Shown here: in pieces, positions 15,942 to 27,826 of the stretch
Numbering within the stretch: position 1 is the first letter of the stretch
Layout: each line of letters starts with the position of its first letter
Assembly (NCBI GenBank): GCA_018828125.1
Contig: JAHJWB010000001.1
Location: 310,001-374,000 of the forward strand
Length of the DNA: 64,000 bases
From: Gammaproteobacteria bacterium
GTDB lineage: Bacteria > Pseudomonadota > Gammaproteobacteria > Burkholderiales > Burkholderiaceae_C
Direction of reading: 5' to 3'
Program-made: the position numbers and the translations under genes
Notes under the pieces: model-generated
Databases searched by the model: none
What the model was told of the DNA's origin: nothing
What the model saw: the letters and a program-made list of their open reading frames with translations, nothing else

Positions 15942-16844
15942 ATGAGCGCTTCTCTTCTCCAACGGTTTTTCCCGTTTCTTGCCGTCCTGGGTTCGGTCAC
16001 TGCACTGGGCATCGGCACCTCCTGGGCCAAGCACTGGCTGTTTCCGGTGGTGGGGGCGCAGGGCACCACGGCCGTTCGGGTGGGCTTTTCTGCCTTGCTG
16101 GTGCTGCTGCTGTGGCGCCCGTGGCGTTGGCCTTTGTCGCGGGCAGATGCGCGCGCCATCGTGCTGTACGGCGCTGCCCTGGGCGGGATGAACCTGATGT
16201 TCTACATGTCCCTGCGCACGCTGCCGTTTGGCTTGGCGGTGGCCATCGAATTCTCGGGGCCGCTGGCGGTGGCGATCTGGTCGTCGCGCCGCGCGGTGGA
16301 TTTTGTGTGGGTGGCGCTGGCCATGGCCGGGCTGGGCATGCTGCTGCCGCTGGGGTTGAACGGTAGCACGCTGGACCCGGTGGGAGTGTTGTATGCGCTG
16401 GGCGCTGCGGTTTTCTGGGCGCTGTACATCGTGTTCGGCAAGCGCGCCGGGCATTTGCACGCGGGGCATACGGTGTCGCTGGGCCTGCTGGTGGCGGCGC
16501 TGGTGGTGGTGCCTGTGGGCGTGGTGCATGCGGGCGCCGCGCTGCTGTCGCCCAGTGTGCTGCTCATTGGCGTGGCGGTGGCGGCAGTGTCCAGCGCCAT
16601 CCCGATCTCGCTGGAAATGATGGCCCTGAAGCGCCTGCCCAAGGAGGCCTTCGGCATCATGATCAGCATGGAGCCCGCGGTGGCTGCCGTGCTGGCCTTG
16701 ATGCTGCTGGGCGAGCACCTGAGCGCGATCCAGTGGCTGGCCATTGGCTGCATCGTGGCAGCGTCGATGGGCAGTGCGGCCACCGCCGCGCGTCCCGTCG
16801 ATGGCCGCCCGATGGATTCAAAAAAGATAGCTGCCAGCGCTTAG
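15942..16844 (+). CDS. EamA/RhtA-like inner-membrane exporter
   Basis: The 300-residue protein has about ten membrane segments and resembles RhtA-type threonine/homoserine exporters, with SFYMSLRTLP-like MFYMSLRTLPFGLAVAIEFSG and IPISLEMMALKRLPKEAFG. It is read divergently from the Lrp gene 89 bases away, which fits amino acid export under Lrp control. The last seven residues (KKIAASA) and the TAG stop lie within a copy of the 46-bp dispersed repeat. The native C-terminus has therefore been replaced or extended by repeat sequence. Confidence 0.88.
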   Translation: MSASLLQRFFPFLAVLGSVTALGIGTSWAKHWLFPVVGAQGTTAVRVGFSALLVLLLWRPWRWPLSRADARAIVLYGAALGGMNLMFYMSLRTLPFGLAVAIEFSGPLAVAIWSSRRAVDFVWVALAMAGLGMLLPLGLNGSTLDPVGVLYALGAAVFWALYIVFGKRAGHLHAGHTVSLGLLVAALVVVPVGVVHAGAALLSPSVLLIGVAVAAVSSAIPISLEMMALKRLPKEAFGIMISMEPAVAAVLALMLLGEHLSAIQWLAIGCIVAASMGSAATAARPVDGRPMDSKKIAASA

Positions 16845-16869
16845 TGGATAAGCGCTAGAGCCATTTTTT
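16821..16869 (+). repeat. 46-bp palindromic dispersed repeat (family 1), copy 2, overlapping a CDS end
   Basis: GATAGCTGCCAGCGCTTAGT followed by GGATAAGCGCTAGAGCCATTTTTT matches the consensus in forward orientation. It covers the final codons and TAG stop of the RhtA-like gene. It also lies just beyond the 3' end of the giant ATPase gene on the other strand, where it could act as a hairpin between convergent transcripts. Confidence 0.85.
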
Positions 16870-16886: not shown

Positions 16887-19800
16887 TTATTTCTTGGGCG
16901 AGGGGCGGATGCTGTCGATCATCCCTTCCAGCCGTTCCACTTCCTCGTGCATCTTGGCGTCCGCGCCCACCCGCGTTTCCACGGCGCGCACCAGCGGCAT
17001 GATGAGCTGACGGTAGGTGACCGACAGCGACAGCAGGGCATCCACCATGCGCTGGCTCTGCGCCGCGTCGCTGTTCTGCGCACTGGCGTGCAGGGCCTGG
17101 GTGCTGGCCTGCAGCGCCTGCAAAGCCTGCGCGGTGGCGTCCAGGCTGGCGCGCATCTGGGCCTGCGTCTGCGTGGTGCCGCCCTGCAGGTGTTTGGCCA
17201 GTTCGGCCAGTGCCGCCAATGACGGCTCCAGCCGCGCCAGCAGTGCGGCCTGGGCCTGCTGCTCGGGTGTGGGTGTGGGGCTGGCCATGTGCTGGGCAAT
17301 CGCGGCCAGCGGCTGCGCCAGTTGCTCACCCAGGTGTTGCGCGTTGTGGGTCAGTTGTTCGGTGAACTGGCGCGGCTGCAGCGCATCGACGCTGCGGGCA
17401 ATGTCCAGCAGGCCGCGCGTCACGCGCACGCTGGGGTCGTCTTCAGCGCCGCCCATCTTGCGCTGGCGTTGGTAGCCGTCGCAAATTTCCGTCCAGCGCG
17501 CCGCTTCGTCGGGCGTGGGGTTGCCGATCAGGTGGGCCAGTTGCAACAGGTTTTCTTCGGCGCCGGTGGTCAGCGTCTGGGCCTCGCCCCGGTAGTGGTC
17601 GCGCAGCAGCGCGTCCAGTTCGTGGGGCTGCATCAGCGGCGTGACCTGTGGCGCCAGCCGCGCCATGTTGCGGTAGCTGCCCTGTAGGCGAAACGGCGGC
17701 GCCACACGATAGCGGTCGTCCTGCGCGGCCGATGCGATGTAGGCCAGATTCACCTTGAGCAACAGGTCGCGCACCGTGAACAGGCGCTGGAACAGGTTCT
17801 TCAGTTCATCCAGCTCGGCCGCGCTGTAGGGGTGGGCAAAGGTGGTGGGGTCGATGGCCTCGCCCTGCGCCAGGCGCACCAGCAGGTGCACGTCCTTGGG
17901 CTCGCGGGCGGTCAGCGGCTGGGTCACCGGGTTGGCGGTCAGGCTGTTTTCCAGGTACGACAGCGCAAACACGGCTTCGCGGCCCGACAGCACGTCGCCC
18001 AGGTTGTAGATGTCGGCCCGGTTGGCCAGCATGTCCGGAATGCGGAACACGTCGCCGGATTCGGTGTACGGGTTGCCCGCCATCACCACCGCAAAGCGCT
18101 TGCCCCGCATGTCCCAGGTGCGGGGCTTGCCTTGCCACACGCCTTCGATGCGGCGGGTGCCGTCGGCCAGGGCGATGAACTTCTGCAGAAACTCGGGGTG
18201 CGTGTGCTGGATGTCGTCCAGGTACAGCATCACGTTGCTGCCCATGGCCAGGCCCAGGTTCAGCTTTTCCAGCTCTTGCCTTGCAGCGCTGTTGGGCGCG
18301 GTGGCGGGGTCGATGGACGTGACGCCGTGGCCCAGCGCAGGGCAGTTGATGCGCACAAACACCAGGCCCAACCGGTCGGCCACGTATTCCATGATGGTGG
18401 TTTTGCCGTAGCCGGGCGGCGAGATCAGCAGCAGCATGCCCATGCGGTCGGTGCGGCTGGCATCGCCTGCCGCGCCAATCTGCTTGGACAGGTTGGCGCC
18501 AATCAGCGGTAAATACACCTCGTCAATCAGCCGGTTGCGCACAAAGGTAGACAGCGGCTTGGCCTGGAACTGCGCCAGGTGCAGGCGCGCCTTCTCTTGC
18601 ACCAGCAGCTCGTGGCGCAGCGTTTGCAGCGCGGCAAAGCTGGTCACCGCATGCACGCGGTGGTAGCGCACGCGACGCCAGAAGTCGTTCAGGTCAATCG
18701 CCAGCGTGCCCTCCGCAATGCGCGCATGCTCGCTGCGCAGGCCCCGCACGGTGGCCTGCAAGGTGGCGTTGACGCGGTGGCGGGGGGCGTCTACCGACAG
18801 CAAGGTGGCAGCGTCATCAATGCCCGCCAGCAGCGCAGCGGTGTTCTCGGATTGAGACTGCGCATACGCGCGCACCCAGTGGCGGGCCAGGCGCCAGCGT
18901 TCGGCAGGCTCTGCGGCCGACAAATCGCGCTGCCAGTTGGCACGCAGGCCGCCATGGTCCAGCGCGCGCTCCAGCCCTTGCGCCAGGTCTTGGCCTGCGC
19001 CGCTGACTACCCACGTGGGGGGCAGGTCGGGCGTCGTTTCGCGTTCGGCCAGCTCGCGCACCAGGTACGCGGCGGCGTCCATGCTCAGCGTGGTGGCCAG
19101 GGCGTCGTGCTCGCTGGCGGTCAACGCGCCGGGTGTGGGCGCTATCTCGGGCAGCAGCTCGTGCAGCAGGTGCGGGAACTCGTGCGCAAAGCGGTGCAGC
19201 GCGGCCTGGGCTTCGTGTTCCAGCGCCTGCTGTGCATCGCGCCGGGTGAACAGTTGGGCAATGTGTGCAGCACTGCGCGCGCGGCGCGCCAATGACTGGC
19301 GTCCCTCTTCGCGCAGGCCATGCTGCCAATACAACAATGCCAGGGCGCGTTCTGCTGGGCCATACACCAGTAGGCCTGCAGCGGCCTGCAGCGGCGCCAG
19401 CACCTGAACCAGCCGCAGCGCATCGTCGTCATGAATGCCGCGCTGGTAGCCCTCTTGGTAGCGGCCTGCGGCAAAGCGGCGCAGGGGCTCCAGCAAGGTG
19501 GCGGGCAGCGGGGCGTCTGGCGCCAACTCGGTCAGTTGCACCAACAGCTCGGCCCAGCCGGGTTCGGTGCTGCCGTTTTGCAGGGCATCCATCCACTCTG
19601 CGCTGAGGTATTCAATGCGCGACAAGGCGGGCGTCTCGGACACCAAGGCCTGGTCCCAGTAGGGGCGCAGGGCCAGCAGGCGTTCGTCGTGTGCGGGTGC
19701 CAGGTAGTCGGTGCCGGTGATCTGCCATGCCAGCCCGCCGTCGTGCGCCACCAAGGTCAGGTCCAGCGGCTGGCGGTTGACCGTGAAGCTATGCGCGCCC

Positions 19801-22499
19801 AGGCGCAGCCCGCTGGCGGCGCCTTCGCCCGAGGCCAGCTCGCGCTGGTCGCGCACCGAGCGCAGGGCTTGGTCGCGGGCGGTTTTCAGGCGCGTGTCGA
19901 TGTCGTCGGCCGCCACGGCGGCGCCCAGGCGGCGCAGCTCGGCTACCTGATCGCGCAGCTTGGCCAGCATAGGGTCGGCCGCAAAATAGCTGTGCACCTG
20001 TGTGAGCTCGGTGAGCGCCGCCACGCGGCGGGGCACGCCGTCCAGAATGCGGGCCGTGGCATCGGCCAGCGCCTTCGCGCGGCGCTGGCGCGCTTCCAGC
20101 AGGCTCTGGCGGCGGGCCGACAGGGCCTCGTACACCGACTCGCGCTTGGTGGCGATGTCGGTGAGGAACTCTTCCTGCTCGGCAAAGCGGGCTTCAATGT
20201 CTTCGAGCTGCGCCAGCAGGCGGGTCAGCGCTTCGTCGCATTTTTCGGGCGTGTCCGCCAGCTCCAGCGCGTTTTCCACCGCCTGGCTAAACAGTTTGAA
20301 CTGCGCGCCAAACTCGGCCCGCTGCTCGGCGGCACCCAGCGAACGGCGGCGCAGGCGCGCGTCGGCCCGCAGGCGGTTGATGTCCGCATACAGCAGTGCA
20401 ATGCGGTCGAGAATGGCCGTGCGTTGCACCGCATCGCCACCGGGCAGGCTGCCCAGTTGCTCGCTCAACAGGTCCAGCCCGGCGGCCTCGTCATCCAGAA
20501 CCGTCAGCTGCTCGGCAAGGTGCGATGCAGTGGCTGCCAGGGGCAGGGCGGCAGCAACCTTTTCCAGCGCCTGGCGTTGTCCGTTGAACGCCTTTTCATC
20601 GGCCAGGAACTGCATGGCGCGCTCGCCCACGCGCTGCTGTTCGTCCGTCAGCGCCTGGGCCATGGCGTCGATGGCGGCGAGGTCGGCGTAGCGCAGTTCG
20701 CGCAGCAGGTGCAGTTCGCCCTGGCGCTGGCGCAGGCGGTTGAGCGCCAGCACAAAATCGTTCGGGCTGCGCCACATCTGGCTGGCGATCACCGTCATCA
20801 GCTCGCGCTGTTGGCCTTCGGCCTTCTGCATGGCGCGGGCGGTGTCCTGGCGGATGCTTTCCACCTTCTCGAATTCGCCCAGCGTGGCCTGTGCGGCCTG
20901 CTCGATGGCCGTCAGGTCTGCAGCGGCGTTCTGCACCTCGGGCGCATCCAGCCAGAAGTACGCATCGCGTGCGCGCAGGCATTGGCGGATCAGGTCTTCA
21001 TACGCCGTGCGGGTGGGCACCTGTTCGCGCACGGTGCGCGCTATGCCCAGCAGGTCAGAAATACCGCGCACCAGGTCGGCATTGCCCACCCGGCCAAAAA
21101 AGCCAGTGCCCGCGGGCTGGCGGCTGGCGTGTTCTTCCGTCGCAAAAGGGGTGCGCCACAGCTGCATCGGATGCACCCGCGTGGCCTCGCCACGTGCGGC
21201 CTGAAACACCAGCATGCGTCCGTCGGGCAGGGTGCCGTACCCGTCGGCCAGGATGGGCGGCGCCAACGACTTTTCAATGAGGTTGTAGGTGAACAGGGCG
21301 TAGCAGCCCGCATCCAAGGTGGCCGGGCTGCCCTGCGGCGGCGGCACCGTGCCGTAAAAGATGTAGGCCACGTCCTCGCCGTTGGGCGAGCGCTTCATAC
21401 GCGTAAAGCGCAGCTGCTCGGTCAGCTCCGGCGGCAGGTCAAAGCGCTTGTGTTCGCCCGACTGCAGGTAGTACCCACCCGGGAAGATGATGCCGTGGTC
21501 TTCCGGCAGCTGCATGCACGACGCGCCAATGGCGTCGATGCGCACCACCTGGCGCGTGCGCTGATTGAACACCAGGTAGCGCGTGGTGTTCTCGCGGTAG
21601 GGGCGCACCTGCAGCAAGATGAGCAGCCCCAGCTTGGCGTACGCAATCTCGGCGTCGCCCAGGGCCTGGTTGGGGTCGTCCACCGGCTCTTCGTAAATGC
21701 CAAGACCCGTTTCGGTGTTGTTCTCGATCTTGAGCGTCAGCGTGCCGCCGGTGGTCTCCACAAACAGCGTGTCCAGCACATTGAAGTGCGGGTGCGCGCC
21801 GCTCACGTGGTTTTCGCGGGTGAGCGGGGTCCAGGCAAAGTCGTGGCTGGGCGGCGGCGTCAGGTCGCGTTCGCCGCGGTTGTCCACGTATTTGAGCGTG
21901 CCATCGCTCTCGCGCCGCCAGCGGAACACGCGAATATCCTGCGCCTGCTGCCCGATCTGAAACGCTGCCAGCAGAAACTCGGGCGTGGGCCGCAGCAGCT
22001 GCAGGGTGGCTTGTTTGTAGTACGTATACAGCTCGTTGAAGTCCGCCACAAAACGCGGGTCGTCCAGAAAGCTGTCGGTCAACGGCACCCGCACCAGCTC
22101 GTCGTTCTCGGCATTTGCGCCAGTGGCGTCTGCTCCTGGGTGTGCCAGTTCATAAATGGCGAACACGTCCTCCACCCGCGTCTCGCGCTTGAGGCCCATG
22201 AACACGTTGTAGCCAAACAGCAGCCGGTTGCCGCCGATGTAGGCCAGGTCGCGGGCCACACAGTTGTGCTCGGTGCGCGCACGCAGGCGCATCAGCAGTT
22301 GCTGGTCGCGCTGGCCAAACTGTTCAATGCGTGCGGCATTGAGCGCCTGGGCCTTGGCCAACAGCTGGTCGCCTTGCACTTCCAGGCGTTTTTTCAGCAG
22401 CTCGTAGCTGCTGCTGTTGGCCACGCTGGTGTCTACGGCGGCGGCATTAGCGTTGACGTCGTCGTCTGCCGATTCGGGGGCGGATGCCTTGGTGTTCAT
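16887..22499 (-). CDS. Giant AAA+ ATPase with coiled coil (DUF3686-type 'DNA repair ATPase')
   Basis: This 1870-residue protein is the last gene of the PspA/flotillin operon. Residues 60-500 form a conserved N-terminal region that I associate with DUF3686. Residues about 545-885 are long Glu/Arg/Ala-rich helices with coiled-coil character. The AAA+ core (about 1340-1640) has Walker A SPPGYGKTT near 1365, Walker B MLYLDDIQ near 1426, sensor-1 asparagine in VVMAGNPY near 1473, and an arginine-containing NRADIYNLGD. The last 180 residues are helical. No signal peptide or membrane segment is evident, so it is probably cytoplasmic or peripheral. The database label 'DNA repair ATPase' has little support here. 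A role in remodelling the PspA/flotillin membrane assembly is my inference from the operon. Its ATG overlaps the zinc-ribbon stop. Confidence 0.88.
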   Translation of the reverse strand: MNTKASAPESADDDVNANAAAVDTSVANSSSYELLKKRLEVQGDQLLAKAQALNAARIEQFGQRDQQLLMRLRARTEHNCVARDLAYIGGNRLLFGYNVFMGLKRETRVEDVFAIYELAHPGADATGANAENDELVRVPLTDSFLDDPRFVADFNELYTYYKQATLQLLRPTPEFLLAAFQIGQQAQDIRVFRWRRESDGTLKYVDNRGERDLTPPPSHDFAWTPLTRENHVSGAHPHFNVLDTLFVETTGGTLTLKIENNTETGLGIYEEPVDDPNQALGDAEIAYAKLGLLILLQVRPYRENTTRYLVFNQRTRQVVRIDAIGASCMQLPEDHGIIFPGGYYLQSGEHKRFDLPPELTEQLRFTRMKRSPNGEDVAYIFYGTVPPPQGSPATLDAGCYALFTYNLIEKSLAPPILADGYGTLPDGRMLVFQAARGEATRVHPMQLWRTPFATEEHASRQPAGTGFFGRVGNADLVRGISDLLGIARTVREQVPTRTAYEDLIRQCLRARDAYFWLDAPEVQNAAADLTAIEQAAQATLGEFEKVESIRQDTARAMQKAEGQQRELMTVIASQMWRSPNDFVLALNRLRQRQGELHLLRELRYADLAAIDAMAQALTDEQQRVGERAMQFLADEKAFNGQRQALEKVAAALPLAATASHLAEQLTVLDDEAAGLDLLSEQLGSLPGGDAVQRTAILDRIALLYADINRLRADARLRRRSLGAAEQRAEFGAQFKLFSQAVENALELADTPEKCDEALTRLLAQLEDIEARFAEQEEFLTDIATKRESVYEALSARRQSLLEARQRRAKALADATARILDGVPRRVAALTELTQVHSYFAADPMLAKLRDQVAELRRLGAAVAADDIDTRLKTARDQALRSVRDQRELASGEGAASGLRLGAHSFTVNRQPLDLTLVAHDGGLAWQITGTDYLAPAHDERLLALRPYWDQALVSETPALSRIEYLSAEWMDALQNGSTEPGWAELLVQLTELAPDAPLPATLLEPLRRFAAGRYQEGYQRGIHDDDALRLVQVLAPLQAAAGLLVYGPAERALALLYWQHGLREEGRQSLARRARSAAHIAQLFTRRDAQQALEHEAQAALHRFAHEFPHLLHELLPEIAPTPGALTASEHDALATTLSMDAAAYLVRELAERETTPDLPPTWVVSGAGQDLAQGLERALDHGGLRANWQRDLSAAEPAERWRLARHWVRAYAQSQSENTAALLAGIDDAATLLSVDAPRHRVNATLQATVRGLRSEHARIAEGTLAIDLNDFWRRVRYHRVHAVTSFAALQTLRHELLVQEKARLHLAQFQAKPLSTFVRNRLIDEVYLPLIGANLSKQIGAAGDASRTDRMGMLLLISPPGYGKTTIMEYVADRLGLVFVRINCPALGHGVTSIDPATAPNSAARQELEKLNLGLAMGSNVMLYLDDIQHTHPEFLQKFIALADGTRRIEGVWQGKPRTWDMRGKRFAVVMAGNPYTESGDVFRIPDMLANRADIYNLGDVLSGREAVFALSYLENSLTANPVTQPLTAREPKDVHLLVRLAQGEAIDPTTFAHPYSAAELDELKNLFQRLFTVRDLLLKVNLAYIASAAQDDRYRVAPPFRLQGSYRNMARLAPQVTPLMQPHELDALLRDHYRGEAQTLTTGAEENLLQLAHLIGNPTPDEAARWTEICDGYQRQRKMGGAEDDPSVRVTRGLLDIARSVDALQPRQFTEQLTHNAQHLGEQLAQPLAAIAQHMASPTPTPEQQAQAALLARLEPSLAALAELAKHLQGGTTQTQAQMRASLDATAQALQALQASTQALHASAQNSDAAQSQRMVDALLSLSVTYRQLIMPLVRAVETRVGADAKMHEEVERLEGMIDSIRPSPKK

Positions 22500-23059
22500 G
22501 AATTAAGCGGCTCAGTGGCGCGGATGAGGGCCAGGACTTCGTCTCGGTGGGGTTGCTCGGCCAGCCAGCGGCGGATGCGCAGCACCTCGTCCATGCAGGC
22601 GTCGCCATGGCGCTGGCGCAGCGCCAGCATGCGCGTGGCCTGCAAGCGTTCGGTTTGCAGGCGGCGCTGGCCGCCGTCAGATAGCAGGGTATCGAGCTGC
22701 TGCGCCAGACCGCGCTGGACCAGGGCCTGCCATTCGCCACGGTCCAGCCATAAATATTGGCAAGGCCCGCAGCGGTCTACCCGGAAGTCGCCTTGCGCAT
22801 CCACCGCCAGGCGCTGCATCAGCCGCGCACAGGCCGGGCAGGCGCGCGCTTGCCCCTGGTCTGCGGGCACGTCGACCGCCCCGGGGGCATCTGGGCTCGC
22901 GACCCAATCAGGAGAGCGGCTGCGCCAGCGGCGCCAGTCATCCATCTGCAGCAGCACGGCGCCGCAGTCAGGGCAGGCGACGGCGGGAAGTCCTTCTTCA
23001 AGGGCCGCGTTCGTCAAAGAGGACCGGCTGGCGCAGCTGCAATGCAGTCGTGTGGTCAT
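22496..23059 (-). CDS. Zinc-ribbon protein (zf-TFIIB-like)
   Basis: The 187-residue protein has CPDC near residue 29 and a second, better preserved ribbon with CPAC near 75 and CGPC near 98. The latter is followed by LWLDRGEWQAL, the signature end of zf-TFIIB-type ribbons. The rest is charged helix with no membrane segment. It overlaps the giant ATPase start by four bases (ATGA), indicating tight co-translation and perhaps a stable complex. I know no function for this family. No clear SD sequence precedes the ATG at 23059. Confidence 0.8.
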   Translation of the reverse strand: MTTRLHCSCASRSSLTNAALEEGLPAVACPDCGAVLLQMDDWRRWRSRSPDWVASPDAPGAVDVPADQGQARACPACARLMQRLAVDAQGDFRVDRCGPCQYLWLDRGEWQALVQRGLAQQLDTLLSDGGQRRLQTERLQATRMLALRQRHGDACMDEVLRIRRWLAEQPHRDEVLALIRATEPLNS

Positions 23060-23082
23060 GGGGGTGAATTGCTATGCAAAGA

Positions 23083-23168
23083 GGAGCGGGTAGCGCTTGA
23101 TTTCATTGGGGTGCAGGTAAAAAACTATCTGAAACCCTTTGAGGACAAGCGCGAGCAGCTATCGTTTT
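23083..23168 (-). repeat. Degenerate family 1 repeat with an enlarged loop
   Basis: On the minus strand GATAGCTGCTCGCGCTTG is separated by about 45 bases from AAGCGCTACCCGCTCC. The halves resemble the two arms of the 46-bp repeat, but the usual 3-6 base loop is expanded. It fills the gap between the flotillin stop and the zinc-ribbon start. The identification is tentative. Confidence 0.4.
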
Positions 23169-25293
23169 ATTTGCGGAAGGTCTGCATCAGTTGCTGCAGC
23201 GCCTGCTTCTGGCTGTCGGTGCCGTTGGTGGCGATCTTGGCCAGCAGGGCCGACACGGTCAGGCTCTGCAGCTCGCCGGCCGAGCCGCCTGCTGCGCCCA
23301 GGATCTGCTTGACGTCTTCCACCACGTCACGTTCGCCGCTCAGCTGGTCTTTGAAAGCCACCTGCAGCGTCTGGCTCTTGCCCACGGCCGCGTCGATGCC
23401 CTTGCCCACCGACAGTGCGCGCACGAAGCTGTCGAAATAATCGCCCTGGCCGCCCACGATGTCGATCTTGGCGTTTTGCAGCGCCACGCCCAGCACCTCG
23501 GCTTGCTCCTTGGCAATGGCGGTCTGCGCCTCGATGCCCTTAATGGTTTCGGCGTGCGCGCGTTCCAGGCGCATGCGGTATTCCTCGTGGTCCCGCGTCT
23601 CTGGGCTCATCGCCTTCATGGCTTCGAACTTTTCCTTCAGGCCGCGCGCTTCTGCGTTGAACTTCACGTCGATGTTGTGGGCCTCGGCGTCGCCCATCTT
23701 GGCCAGCGCTTCGGCGTCTGCGGTGCGCACATGCGCTTCGGCGTTACCGATCTTTGCCTTGCCTTCGGCTTCGGCGTCAAAGCGCGCGCGCATGCCGGTG
23801 GCTTCGGCCTGCGAGCGGGCTTCGATCACATGGGCTTCGGAGCGGCCGACCTTTTCTTTGCCGGTGGCCTCTGCCTCCAGGCGGGCCAGTTGTGCGCCGG
23901 CGGCGGCAATCTGTACCTTGGCGTCTGCCAGACCGGGTGCGGCCGACAGGGCTTCGATCCCTTCTGCATCGCGCTTCTTGGCTTCGGCTTCGCGCTCGGC
24001 GACTTTCAGGCGCGCGTCGGCCAGCACCAGGTCCTCGGCGGCCTTGTGGCGCGCCTTGCGCTCCTGTGCTTCGGCGGTCTTCACTTCCATGATGACCTTC
24101 TCTTCGGCTGCGGCTTCGGCGCCGATCACGATGGCTTTGCGGGTGCGGTCGGCCTCAGCCACTTCGCGCACTTCCTTGATCGCTTCTTCCTGCTCGGCCA
24201 CGGTACGCTCGACCACGATGCGTTCGCGCACCACGTCGGCAATGGCCTTTTTCTGGATTTCAACGGCCTTGTCTTTTTCGATGCGCTGAAGCGTCACCTC
24301 CTTTTCGCGGGCGACGATTTCCAGGTCTTGCGCACGTGTCACGCGCTCTTGCTCAATCACCACTGCGCGCTTGCGGTTGTTCTCGGCCACTTCCTTTTCG
24401 CGCAACACGTTTTCCTGCTGCACGGCCAGGGCTTGTTCGGACTGCAGGCGGGCCATTTCAGAGCGGGTGCGTTCTTCCGCCTGAATCTTGGAGGTCTCGG
24501 CTTCTTCGCGGGCCTTCACGGTGGCCACTTCGCGTGCCTGGCGGGCGGTGGCGTCGGCCTGTTGGCGCTCCAGCTCCAGCATGGCTTCCTGCGTTTCCAC
24601 GTTCTTCTTTTTGATCTGCATTTCCTCGTTGCGGCGCAGTTCGTTGGTCACCACGTGTTCCGTGGCGGTCAGCTGGGTGATCTTCTTGATACCCTGCGCG
24701 TCGAGGATGTTGTTGGAGTCGAGTTTGGACAGCGGCGTCTGCTCCAGGTAGTCAATGGCCGCGTCTTCCAGCACATAGCCCGACAGGTCGTCACCAATCT
24801 GCTCGATGATCTTGTCGCGAAAGCGGTCGCGGGCCTGGTACAGGTCCACAAAGTCCAGCGACTTGCCTGCGGTCTTCAGGGCTTCAGAGAACTTGGCCGA
24901 GAACAGGTCTTCCAGAATCTCGTGGTTGGACGCGCGCGCGCAGCCAATGCCCTGCGCCACGCGCAGTACGTCTTCGGCCGTCTTGTTCACCCGCACAAAG
25001 AACTTCACCTTGATGTCGGCGCGGATGTTGTCCGCGCAGATCAGGCCCTGGTCACCCGATCTGTCGATCTCGATCGTCTTGACCGAGATGTCCATCAACT
25101 CGGCCTTGTGGATTATGGGGTAGACCATTCGCCCCGTGAAGGTGACTTCAGGCTCGGCGCGCAGGGTGTTGATGATGAGTGCGTGGCCTTGCTCCACCTT
25201 GCGGTAGAACTTCGCGAACATGGCGAACATCGCCAGGATAAGGACGACGATGACGCCAACGGCAATCAGGATGACCATGAGGGATTGCTGCAT
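23167..25293 (-). CDS. yqiK: Flotillin-like SPFH protein (YqiK family)
   Basis: The 708-residue protein has one N-terminal membrane segment (residues 7-29, MVILIAVGVIVVLILAMFAM). An SPFH/band-7 domain follows (about residues 35-210, with HALIINTLRAEPEVTFTGR and MDISVKTIEIDRSGDQGLIC). Residues 220-620 form a very long Glu/Ala/Lys-rich flotillin-type coiled coil. Flotillins scaffold ordered inner-membrane microdomains. In E. coli yqiK lies next to yqiJ, as here, and the pair has been linked to envelope integrity. A shadow ORF of 706 codons on the other strand is an artefact of the EA-rich repeats. Confidence 0.92.
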   Translation of the reverse strand: MQQSLMVILIAVGVIVVLILAMFAMFAKFYRKVEQGHALIINTLRAEPEVTFTGRMVYPIIHKAELMDISVKTIEIDRSGDQGLICADNIRADIKVKFFVRVNKTAEDVLRVAQGIGCARASNHEILEDLFSAKFSEALKTAGKSLDFVDLYQARDRFRDKIIEQIGDDLSGYVLEDAAIDYLEQTPLSKLDSNNILDAQGIKKITQLTATEHVVTNELRRNEEMQIKKKNVETQEAMLELERQQADATARQAREVATVKAREEAETSKIQAEERTRSEMARLQSEQALAVQQENVLREKEVAENNRKRAVVIEQERVTRAQDLEIVAREKEVTLQRIEKDKAVEIQKKAIADVVRERIVVERTVAEQEEAIKEVREVAEADRTRKAIVIGAEAAAEEKVIMEVKTAEAQERKARHKAAEDLVLADARLKVAEREAEAKKRDAEGIEALSAAPGLADAKVQIAAAGAQLARLEAEATGKEKVGRSEAHVIEARSQAEATGMRARFDAEAEGKAKIGNAEAHVRTADAEALAKMGDAEAHNIDVKFNAEARGLKEKFEAMKAMSPETRDHEEYRMRLERAHAETIKGIEAQTAIAKEQAEVLGVALQNAKIDIVGGQGDYFDSFVRALSVGKGIDAAVGKSQTLQVAFKDQLSGERDVVEDVKQILGAAGGSAGELQSLTVSALLAKIATNGTDSQKQALQQLMQTFRK

Positions 25294-25392
25294 GAGAACG
25301 CTTTCTGGTGAAAGGGTTGAGAAGAAAAACGAAACGGATGGAAAGAAATGGAGGCCCGGCGAGAGCGCCTAAACGCACCACGCCAGCGTGCG

Positions 25393-26037
25393 TCACGCCG
25401 GTGGCAGCGGCATGACCAGGTAGCGGTGCGTGCCCGCGTCGTATTCGGTGATCAGCGCGGTGTCGCCGCGCTTCAAGCTGTTGGGGCTGGGCGACCACAC
25501 GCGGATGTTGAGGCTGGCGCCGCGTTGCGCGACCTCGGCGCGGCCCTGGCGCTCGTCGACCGTGCCGGTCAGCACACGGCAGGTCTGGCCGACCAGCGAA
25601 GCATTGCTCTGCGCAGTGTGGTGCACGAACAGCCCGCGCAGCGGTCGCACCAGCCGTGCGGTGATGACGATGGACAGCGCAAACGCCACCAGCAACACCA
25701 CCAGGCCCACCAGCCATTTCAGGATGTCGGTTGGCACCCAGGCCAGCACAGTGACGCCCGCCAGGAACGTCAGCGTCCAGCCCACCAGCACCAGCAGGCT
25801 GACCACAATGGAAAACGGCACGCCGTGCAGCCCAAAGGCCACCACATAGCTGGCGATGGTGCCCATGTCGTCCACGCTGGCGTCGGCGTGGGTTTCGATG
25901 TCCAGGTCAATGCCGCTGGACTCGAAATCCACCATGCCGATGATGGCCAGCAGCCAATACACCAGCACTACGCCCAGCAGCACCGTGTAGATGGCGGTCG
26001 GAAAGGCCGTAGCCGCCGTTAAGAGACTGGCAAACAT
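25393..26037 (-). CDS. yqiJ: YqiJ-like membrane protein with C-terminal OB-fold (NfeD-like)
   Basis: The 214-residue protein has an N-terminal membrane segment (about residues 14-35), two more (about 76-96 and 104-126) and a soluble C-terminal domain (about 140-210, SLVGQTCRVLTGTVDERQG .. GDTALITEY) with the beta-rich look of the NfeD OB-fold. NfeD-like proteins partner flotillins. It lies 99 bases upstream of yqiK, the same order as in E. coli. It probably anchors or regulates the flotillin microdomain. Confidence 0.85.
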   Translation of the reverse strand: MFASLLTAATAFPTAIYTVLLGVVLVYWLLAIIGMVDFESSGIDLDIETHADASVDDMGTIASYVVAFGLHGVPFSIVVSLLVLVGWTLTFLAGVTVLAWVPTDILKWLVGLVVLLVAFALSIVITARLVRPLRGLFVHHTAQSNASLVGQTCRVLTGTVDERQGRAEVAQRGASLNIRVWSPSPNSLKRGDTALITEYDAGTHRYLVMPLPPA

Positions 26038-26096
26038 GAAAATCCCCCCTCGTTATGTGTTGTGTTCTGGTCGAGGAAAACGCAGAACCGGACTTC

Positions 26097-26480
26097 TTAT
26101 TTTTTCTTGGATGAAGAAGACGCGCTGTTTTTCTCTTGCGCGTTCTTCACGTCCTTCGCGTTCTGCACAAACGCGATCAGCTCGCGTGTTGCCGCCTCTT
26201 TGATTCCCAGGCGGTCATCGGGCGCAAGGCCGTAGCGCTGCGCCAGCAATTCGTAATCGGCCCCGTCCAGCGTCACCGTAAGGCGCGGCCGTTTGGGTCG
26301 CGCTGCGACCGGCAAGTCGAGCACGCTGCGGATCTGCGTGGACGTGGATACATTGGCATGAAAGGCCGCCACGCGGACGGCTTCCATCACCGCCTCTTCC
26401 ACATCAAACGCAACCTGAACGGCGCGCAGCGCGGGCTCCGAGCCCTGCCACCGCGCGGGTTTGCGCGGGGCGGGGCTCAT
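26097..26480 (-). CDS. Small conserved-looking protein of the PspA operon, possible tandem ribbon-helix-helix
   Basis: The 127-residue product is not a family I recognise by name. By eye it has two beta-helix-helix units: AVQVAFDVEE plus helices ending TSTQIRSVLDL (residues 21-57), and RLTVTLDGADYELLAQ plus IKEAATRELIAFVQ (residues 64-108). That pattern is compatible with two ribbon-helix-helix folds, which usually bind DNA. The C-terminus is a flexible Ser/Lys tail ending SSSSKKK. Its ATG overlaps the pspA stop (ATGA), so it is made together with PspA. It could be the operon's regulator or an adaptor; both are speculation. Confidence 0.75.
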   Translation of the reverse strand: MSPAPRKPARWQGSEPALRAVQVAFDVEEAVMEAVRVAAFHANVSTSTQIRSVLDLPVAARPKRPRLTVTLDGADYELLAQRYGLAPDDRLGIKEAATRELIAFVQNAKDVKNAQEKNSASSSSKKK

Positions 26481-27220
26481 GGGGCGGGTGTGGGTGCTGC
26501 GGGAGCGGTTGTGCTTGCAGCGCTACCGGCCGCCTGGCGGGCACGCAGGCGCTCCATCACCTTGGCGGCGCGGGCCTTGTCGTTGTCGCCAATACCCGCA
26601 TCGGCCAGCTTGCGCTCCAGTGCGCGGTGGCCAAACTCCTGGTCCAGCTGCTCCGCGGCCGCCATGCGGTCGGCCAGGTCTTCGTGCCGCTTCTTGATGC
26701 GTTCCAGCGAATCGCGTGCACTGGTCAGCTGCGAGCCGGTGGCGCCAATGCTTTCTGAAATGCTCTGCGTGGCGCGGTAGACGCTCTCGGTGGTCTTGGC
26801 AATGCCGATCTCGCGCTCGTGCTCGCGCACACGGCCTTCTGCGCTGCGTATCAAATCCTTCAGGCGAGACACCTGCAGCGCGTAGCTGGCATGCGCCTGC
26901 GTCTGCTCCGTCAGCTCGGCCTCCAGCGCGGCCACGCGGTCGGCTACCTCCAGCGCCAGGCCTTCGTTGGCCTTGTCCAGCGCCTGCACGGCCATGTCTT
27001 CGTGGCGCAGCATGTCGGACTTGATCCGCTCAATGTCGCGCGCTGTCTGCATCTGTTTGGCCATCACGCCGGTCAACTCGGTCTTGGCCTCGTTGATGCT
27101 CGCCTTGGCGTCGATGATCTCTTGTTCATAAATGCGCGTGGCATTGCCATCGACCACGCTCTGGCCCAGTTCGCGTGCGCTGCCGCGCAGCAGGGTGACT
27201 AGCTTCTTGATGACCGACAT
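26477..27220 (-). CDS. PspA/IM30 family protein (YjfJ-like, bacterial ESCRT-III fold)
   Basis: The 247-residue protein begins with an amphipathic helix (SVIKKLVTLLRGSARELG) and continues as long helices to about residue 220, the all-helical PspA/IM30 pattern. A short Ala/Thr/Pro-rich tail follows. PspA proteins assemble on damaged inner membranes and share the ESCRT-III fold. This paralogue resembles YjfJ, not the sigma54-controlled PspA, and no pspF, pspB or pspC is nearby. An SD-like AGGAGAA precedes the ATG. The neighbours yjfI, yqiJ, yqiK and an AAA+ ATPase suggest a membrane-remodelling assembly. Confidence 0.9.
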   Translation of the reverse strand: MSVIKKLVTLLRGSARELGQSVVDGNATRIYEQEIIDAKASINEAKTELTGVMAKQMQTARDIERIKSDMLRHEDMAVQALDKANEGLALEVADRVAALEAELTEQTQAHASYALQVSRLKDLIRSAEGRVREHEREIGIAKTTESVYRATQSISESIGATGSQLTSARDSLERIKKRHEDLADRMAAAEQLDQEFGHRALERKLADAGIGDNDKARAAKVMERLRARQAAGSAASTTAPAAPTPAP

Positions 27221-27313
27221 GATGGTTCTCCTGTCACAGTCGAAAAATCACACAAAGAGAAAGAAGGGCGGCGACCGCGCGCTTCAACGGATATTCGAAA
27301 AGGTTGCAGCGCC

Positions 27314-27730
27314 TCAGCGCAGAAACTCGGCCAGTGCGTCCAGCGCATCCAGCGCGTTGTCGCTCAGTACCGCCACTTCATGCGCCACGTCTTCAGCGCG
27401 CGCCGCACGGGCCAGCGCACCCACCAGCACAAACCGCCCATCCACGCGTCCAAAGGCCGACAAAGGCACGGAGGGGTTCAGGTCCAGCAGCGCCTCCATC
27501 AGCTCGGCACGCCGCTCGGGGCGCACGTCGGCGTCGGTCCACAGGTAGCACAGACAGATGACCTGCATATCCGAGCAGGTCACAAAGATGGGCAGCTCGT
27601 CGCGCCCTTCAATGCTGACCTGCACCACCGGCACATCGCCCGCAATGGGCTGCAACTGCACCGACACGCCCCCCATGAGCGCGGAGGTCAGCACGTCCAG
27701 GTTGTTGAGTTGTTCCAGCAAAGTGGGCAC
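27314..27730 (-). CDS. yjfI: YjfI family protein (DUF2170)
   Basis: The 138-residue acidic cytoplasmic protein starts at GTG 27730, with AAGGAG eight bases upstream. Recognisable stretches are DVPVVQVSIEGRDELPIFVT, ICLCYLWTDADV and FGRVDGRFVLVGAL, which I associate with E. coli YjfI, whose gene precedes the PspA paralogue yjfJ. It is the first gene of the operon. Comparative studies place such proteins as PspA partners; their biochemical action is unknown. Confidence 0.83.
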   Translation of the reverse strand: MPTLLEQLNNLDVLTSALMGGVSVQLQPIAGDVPVVQVSIEGRDELPIFVTCSDMQVICLCYLWTDADVRPERRAELMEALLDLNPSVPLSAFGRVDGRFVLVGALARAARAEDVAHEVAVLSDNALDALDALAEFLR

Positions 27731-27797
27731 AGCGTCTCCTTCATCACACGGGTGGGACAGGCGGCCGGGGAAGGTGCGTGTGCCTGCATGGATGGGG

Positions 27798-27826
27798 AGA
27801 ATACGTGTGCTGACATATCATGTCAA
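27798..27826 (-). promoter_or_regulatory. Sigma70-type promoter of the yjfI-pspA-flotillin operon, overlapping a palindrome
   Basis: Read on the minus strand, TTGACA (27826-27821) and TATTCT (27803-27798) are separated by exactly 17 bases, a near-consensus sigma70 promoter about 70 bases upstream of the yjfI start. TGACAT-ATC-ATGTCA (27811-27825) is a perfect 6-bp inverted repeat covering the -35 box, where a repressor would block polymerase. I do not see the GG-N10-GC pattern of a sigma54 promoter, which classical psp operons use. Confidence 0.65.

Follow-up and report, generated by a model that had tools for sequence, protein, structure and literature searches.

The window analysed here, a stretch of 64,000 nucleotides from a gammaproteobacterial genome, carries seven consecutive minus-strand genes, which we call A to G from the promoter onwards. 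Gene A (27314–27730, minus strand) encodes a short DUF2170/YjfI protein of 138 aa (PF09938, E 1.2e-26); it starts with GTG, with AAGGAG 5' of the start. It matches the BacA model NF050185 only from model position 80, and by homology it is a CesT/Tir-like chaperone domain corresponding to the C-terminal part of BacA. According to Pfam, it adjoins a PspA/IM30 family gene of the YjfJ type, gene B (26477–27220, minus strand; 247 aa; PF04012, E 6e-32). Gene C (26097–26480, minus strand) encodes a small protein of 127 aa, with no family assigned, that is probably a tandem ribbon-helix-helix (RHH) regulator. The product of gene D (25393–26037, minus strand) is a three-helix membrane protein of 214 aa without a Pfam match; its YqiJ-like label comes from homologous loci, and its homologues, for example in Hymenobacter, carry the label DUF1449. 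Gene E (23167–25293, minus strand), also named from homologous loci, encodes a flotillin/YqiK of 708 aa with a TM segment, an SPFH domain and a coiled coil, matching Pfam Flot (PF15975) only below threshold. Gene F (22496–23059, minus strand) encodes a zinc-ribbon protein of 187 aa (PF13453, E 2e-6) with CxxC pairs at 29/32, 74/77 and 97/100. Gene G (16887–22499, minus strand) encodes a DUF3686-DUF7902-AAA+ ATPase of 1870 aa (PF12458, E 2e-177; PF25472, E 3e-19; AAA_5, E 4e-6).

All seven ORFs are intact, and the coordinates agree with those of the preliminary description of this DNA. That description spoke of several ATGA overlaps; there are just two, between pspA and gene C and between the zinc-ribbon and ATPase genes, and the remaining intergenic gaps measure 93, 59, 99 and 107 bp. 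A convergent EamA transporter gene lies beyond the ATPase end, and an LprI-like gene on the operon's strand lies upstream of the promoter. Between the convergent EamA and ATPase genes, an inverted repeat AGCGCTTAGTGGATAAGCGCT followed by TTTTTT (16836–16856) forms a possible shared terminator for both; a terminator scan did not include this repeat among its reports.

A sigma-70-like promoter, TTGACA-N17-TATTCT (27798–27826, minus strand), with 10/12 consensus matches, was the best of three found, against 1.2 expected in shuffles, and its first base is the right edge of the feature (27826). Upstream of gene A there was no good sigma-54-type site (TGGCAC-N5-TTGC). Overlapping the −35 element and the spacer is a perfect inverted repeat, TGACATGATATGTCA (27811–27825, no strand assigned), a putative operator. 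No second perfect copy exists in the 5.18-Mb genome, where a single further site matches at one mismatch.

Relatives of the operon

E. coli has the same protein pairs in two separate loci, yjfI-yjfJ and yqiJ-yqiK. Unlike the window, these loci come without a DUF3686 ATPase, for which the control genomes gave no match. YjfI/YjfJ and YqiJ are also named by Ravi et al. 2024 (PMC11237479), who describe DUF2170-PspA-YqiJ-flotillin-AAA+ operons and propose ESCRT-like, ATP-dependent membrane remodelling for them. The membrane-remodelling idea of the preliminary description was thus already in print. The operons of that article share with the window DUF2170, PspA, flotillin, YqiJ and an AAA+ protein with a coiled coil and a reported beta-propeller, and an abbreviated flotillin-YqiJ-AAA+ form is also noted there. 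Relative to what is described there, the window has gene C and the zinc ribbon inserted among these genes, its DUF2170 is short and its operator differs. The gene order recurs in dozens of species, so the arrangement is far from chance, and the seven-gene set is a member of this already described, rare operon class. What is new here is a dedicated operator before the operon together with a likely in-operon repressor, in two interchangeable versions; the available text of Ravi et al. (PMC11237479) holds no mention that we found of operators, of gene C or of a strict flotillin-ATPase pairing.

For comparison, we assembled 91 loci from one scan of genome contigs and from other sources. Eighty of them were the top scorers among at least 581 relatives, which biases the set towards near relatives; linkage counts use the 77 loci where 5 kb or more lies upstream of the ATPase. 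A separate phylum-wide sample of 249 genomes served for the co-occurrence of DUF3686 and flotillin, and DUF3686 proved rare across the phylum (6/249 genomes). Some copies of the ATPase operon are borne by large plasmids, found in Pseudomonas, Streptomyces, Hymenobacter and Deinococcus (loci L013, L012, L014 and L015), a location that fits horizontal spread; no close relative of the ATPase was found among viral contigs. The Pseudomonas plasmid (L013) is pQBR103 from Pseudomonas fluorescens SBW25, where the PspA module includes rhomboid, DUF2491, DUF350, DUF1190 and glutathionylspermidine-synthase genes.

The ATPase and its membrane partners

In gene G, the DUF3686 domain spans residues 46–515 (20955–22364, minus strand; Pfam) and is reported to be a beta-propeller by Ravi et al. 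2024 (PMC11237479). The AAA+ core (18000–18488, minus strand) was placed by motifs invariant across phyla in homologue alignments: Walker A, SPPGYGKT (residues 1360–1367); Walker B, ending in YLDD (D1428 and D1429); sensor-1, GNPYTE (N1476); and LANRAD, with R1494 as the candidate arginine finger. Every aligned homologue has DD rather than the usual DE in Walker B (residues 1428–1429, nt ~18213–18218), so the catalytic glutamate may be swapped for aspartate or placed elsewhere.

In an AF2 model of residues 870–1740 (pLDDT 84), two paired strands lie between Walker B and sensor 1, the arrangement of the pre-sensor-1 beta-hairpin group to which MoxR-type proteins such as NorQ and CbbQ belong. 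In the fold search, RuvB was nearest by E-value, whereas by target-normalised TM-score NorQ and CbbQ were nearest (0.58, versus about 0.40 for RuvB); MCM was also near. Pfam AAA_5 scored slightly better than AAA (E 2e-5). Judged from the model, the AAA+ domain resembles MoxR-type NorQ/CbbQ and RuvB, not Vps4. Gene G differs from MoxR-type proteins in its very long N-terminal DUF3686 and coiled-coil region, and no VWA-domain partner gene was noticed. The MoxR/NorQ/CbbQ/RuvB-type branch consists of remodelling ATPases that service large protein assemblies and is distinct from the Vps4 branch.

The closest association of the ATPase is with flotillin and YqiJ. Both genes lie near the DUF3686 ATPase gene at all 77 loci, a sample drawn from the best 80 of at least 581 relatives plus others, and in almost all of them directly upstream; among all loci compared, flotillin homologues were found at 85 and YqiJ-like genes at 81. 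In the phylum-wide sample, a close, near-full-length flotillin (48–100% identity) occurred in the same 6/249 genomes as the ATPase and in 0/243 others, an overlap with a probability of ~3e-12 by simple counting; the 20 other flotillin matches in the 249 genomes are partial, cover roughly the first 450 residues and reach at most 30% identity. The pair has a patchy distribution across Pseudomonadota, Actinomycetota, Deinococcota, Bacteroidota and Myxococcota. The core machine thus consists of the ATPase with flotillin and YqiJ, as their co-inheritance shows, and the preliminary description was right to place the ATPase in a membrane system. The direct target of the ATPase, we infer, is the flotillin/YqiJ assembly.

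The database names of the ATPase point elsewhere. A DNA repair function is suggested by inherited names only ("ATPase involved in DNA repair" in Pfam, "DNA repair ATPase" in RefSeq) and by RuvB standing among the nearest folds. The RuvB-like similarity is, however, general to this AAA+ branch, and the MoxR-type TM-score is at least as good; no DNA-repair gene adjoins the ATPase in the annotated loci, and flotillin and YqiJ accompany the gene at all 77 loci counted. The label is unfit for this setting, as had been argued from the window, and we rejected a repair role on gene context, considering it very improbable indeed.

PspA is a much looser associate. In the same sample (again the top 80 from at least 581 relatives, with others added), 39/77 loci have PspA, 39/77 have DUF2170 and 38/77 have both, while gene C occurs in 12/77. 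Parsimony on the ATPase tree requires 13 changes of the PspA-bearing state, and at least eight changes are forced for the core-only label. A PspA_IM30 gene was absent from 6 of the 29 core-only genomes checked, a result confirmed by a search with the PspA of the window; the same query found none in a seventh core genome (that of L029). These PspA-less genomes, Aquabacterium among them, are mostly drafts, yet of normal size. PspA-DUF2170 is an optional plug-in to the ATPase-flotillin/YqiJ core, and the PspA-less genomes indicate that the core job of the ATPase is separable from PspA. In four genomes, G007 (L009), G275 (L095), G263 and G253, the DUF2170-PspA-C module is present but unlinked from the flotillin-ATPase core. 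The zinc-ribbon gene, present at 12/77 loci of the best-80-of-at-least-581 sample plus others, is accessory as well. It stands downstream of the ATPase in L035, L050 and L056, not upstream, and is divergent from yqiJ in L009; such placements suggest a mobile accessory gene.

This distribution bears on the proposal that the ATPase disassembles PspA as Vps4 disassembles ESCRT-III, its main conserved task being to extract PspA subunits from membrane-bound polymers. In its favour, PspA has the ESCRT-III fold according to the literature, it shares an operon with the ATPase at half of the sampled loci (39/77, counted in the sample with the top 80 from at least 581 relatives), and ATP-dependent remodelling is what Ravi et al. 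2024 propose for such operons. Yet the other half of the loci, and seven core genomes altogether, do without PspA, the AAA+ domain lies closest to MoxR-type NorQ/CbbQ, RuvB and MCM, and Pfam detected no MIT domain in gene G. We regard this as an unlikely account of the general task. The preliminary description would have been refuted by DUF3686 ATPases occurring mostly without PspA/flotillin neighbours; as regards flotillin this is not the case, but its picture of Vps4-style PspA disassembly finds no support as the general, conserved task of the ATPase. The placement of the fold leaves room for an ATPase that works like Vps4 in a loose sense, but not for one that is a Vps4-like ATPase; Vps4 homology of gene G was rejected, given the fold search and the partner distribution.

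Two operon types with their own operators

Operons that carry DUF2170 fall into two exclusive types among the loci compared. Type 1, found in this window, other Burkholderiales, Pseudoalteromonas, Zooshikella and others, combines a short DUF2170 (136–145 aa) with a separate gene C. Type 2, found in pseudomonads, Delftia, Comamonas, Cellvibrio, Lysobacter and Gilliamella, lacks gene C and has a DUF2170 with an N-terminal extension of ~65 aa. The motif TGACAT-N3-ATGTC(A) occurs 26–115 nt upstream of 13/13 type 1 operons with sequence and 0/27 type 2 operons (Fisher, 8e-11), whereas T(T/C)ACATGT(A/G)A occurs in 25/27 type 2 operons, often in two copies, and in 0/13 of type 1. In 30/30 further pseudomonad promoters, two copies of the latter stand 22–23 nt apart, and these 60 sites are all of its matches in 102,645 bases. 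Across these sequences, the putative operator types pair strictly with the two predicted regulator types.

Gene C thus co-occurs strictly with the TGACAT-N3-ATGTC operator, which stands as a short inverted repeat at the promoter of gene C's own operon; L087 carries C and has no visible operator on its short contig. The family consensus of gene C matches only RHH models (RHH_1 and FitA-like RHH), weakly (E 0.07). An AF2 monomer (pLDDT 81.5) is helical, with helices where the first strand would be expected, and the fold search gave no significant match to this model; nor did profile comparison find homology between C and the N-terminus of the long DUF2170. Gene C likely encodes an RHH-like autorepressor of its own operon, which would account for the protein listed in the preliminary description as a 127-aa unknown.

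The core-only loci L009 and L095 have a type-1 operator and no gene C nearby, and, as predicted, a C gene was found elsewhere in both genomes. These genomes also carry operators before their unlinked pspA loci. The same operator thus precedes both loci in two module-unlinked genomes, a possible trans regulon. Six PspA-less core genomes without C gave 0, 0, 0, 0, 0 and 1 operator matches.

Alternatively, a global unlinked regulator, for example one of envelope stress, could bind these operators while gene C does something else. The weak RHH match and the lack of an AF2 fold match leave C's fold unproven, and operator-bearing genomes such as G007 do have a few extra sites elsewhere. Against it, the full-form operator is unique in the window's genome, operator type switches exactly with C versus the long DUF2170 in 40 operons, C is encoded elsewhere in the genomes whose unlinked core has the operator, and the six PspA-less core genomes that lack C have next to no matches. 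This alternative appears rather unlikely to us, and both operon types probably come with an autoregulator of their own, whose binding we deduce from sequence patterns.

In type 2, the regulator would be the extended DUF2170 itself, whose extra segment has weak matches to a MazE-like antitoxin and a plasmid repressor model. In a P. aeruginosa-like genome (G395, L130:2249-2869), the BacA reading frame runs for 206 codons, beginning at an ATG that closely follows the tandem operators, and the gene is 99% identical to crystallised BacA (8Q8O). The 146-aa crystallised protein aligns from about residue 60 of the 206-aa protein, its start being an internal ATG preceded by AAGGAG. The NCBI BacA model likewise spans 206 aa, and relatives match it over the full length, so the crystal appears to be without a conserved N-terminal segment. 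These missing ~60 residues are probably the DNA-binding part of BacA.

The long start has no strong Shine-Dalgarno sequence and comes right after a −10-like TAGTGT, so that a leaderless BacA mRNA is possible. A sigma-54 promoter has been proposed for the pseudomonad bac operon; we saw no convincing sigma-54 site between the operators and the long BacA start in the P. aeruginosa-like locus. An internal Shine-Dalgarno start with a match of at least 6 nt occurs in 15/27 long DUF2170 genes versus 4/85 control windows, and synonymous resampling reproduces the signal half the time. A second, short DUF2170 from an internal start of the long gene is therefore only suggestive.

A proposed layered model of the system

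The P. aeruginosa bac operon (PA3732-PA3728; compared in L130) has DUF2170 (BacA), PspA (BacB), YqiJ, flotillin and the DUF3686 ATPase in the same order as the window. It differs in its long, 206-aa DUF2170, in lacking gene C and the zinc ribbon, and in its operators, tandem TTACATGTGA/TTACATGTAA rather than TGACAT-N3-ATGTCA. The six-gene bac operon affects biofilm formation, swarming and rhamnolipids and responds to osmotic shock (PMC2587700, PMC10948618), and when bacA is missing, levels of the other Bac proteins climb 6- to 13-fold (PMC10948618). PA3728-PA3732 are induced on phage infection (PMC12041424). An anti-phage defence role was considered and set aside, PADLOC having given just weak coiled-coil or P-loop matches. 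In B. subtilis, the PspA-YdjG/H-YdjI system resembles the window in that an SPFH protein and membrane proteins dock PspA, with YdjI recruiting PspA to the membrane; unlike in the window, the available part of the report names no AAA+ ATPase (PMC8581546). YdjI is a different SPFH protein from the classical flotillins.

We favour a layered, inducible inner-membrane stress machine, made up of a core, a PspA plug-in and in-operon operator control, and give this model as a whole a probability of roughly 60%. In the first layer, YqiJ and the dedicated flotillin subfamily would form a membrane scaffold, with the giant DUF3686 AAA+ protein as its ATP-driven remodelling partner. In the second, the scaffold would recruit PspA and its chaperone-like partner DUF2170 to seal or remodel membrane that has been damaged, and PspA may be recycled with the aid of the ATPase; the docking of PspA on the scaffold is proposed by analogy with YdjI in B. 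subtilis (PMC8581546). In the third, C would bind TGACAT-N3-ATGTCA in the promoter and keep the operon off until a presumed stress signal arrives, a job that the N-terminal extension of the long DUF2170 (BacA) may do in type 2 at the tandem T(T/C)ACATGT(A/G)A sites.

For the evolution of the system, we tentatively suggest, with somewhat less conviction than for the model itself, an obligate flotillin/AAA+ pair into which PspA has been plugged and unplugged repeatedly, with the autorepressor either separate and RHH-like or fused to DUF2170. In the fused form, repression could be governed directly by the chaperone-substrate state. The operator data also provide a concrete regulatory model for the pseudomonad bac operon. 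We know of no settled account of how SPFH/flotillin assemblies are disassembled or reset. An ATPase whose inheritance is tied without exception to one flotillin subfamily is a direct candidate for this disassembly or reset, and the question thereby becomes testable.
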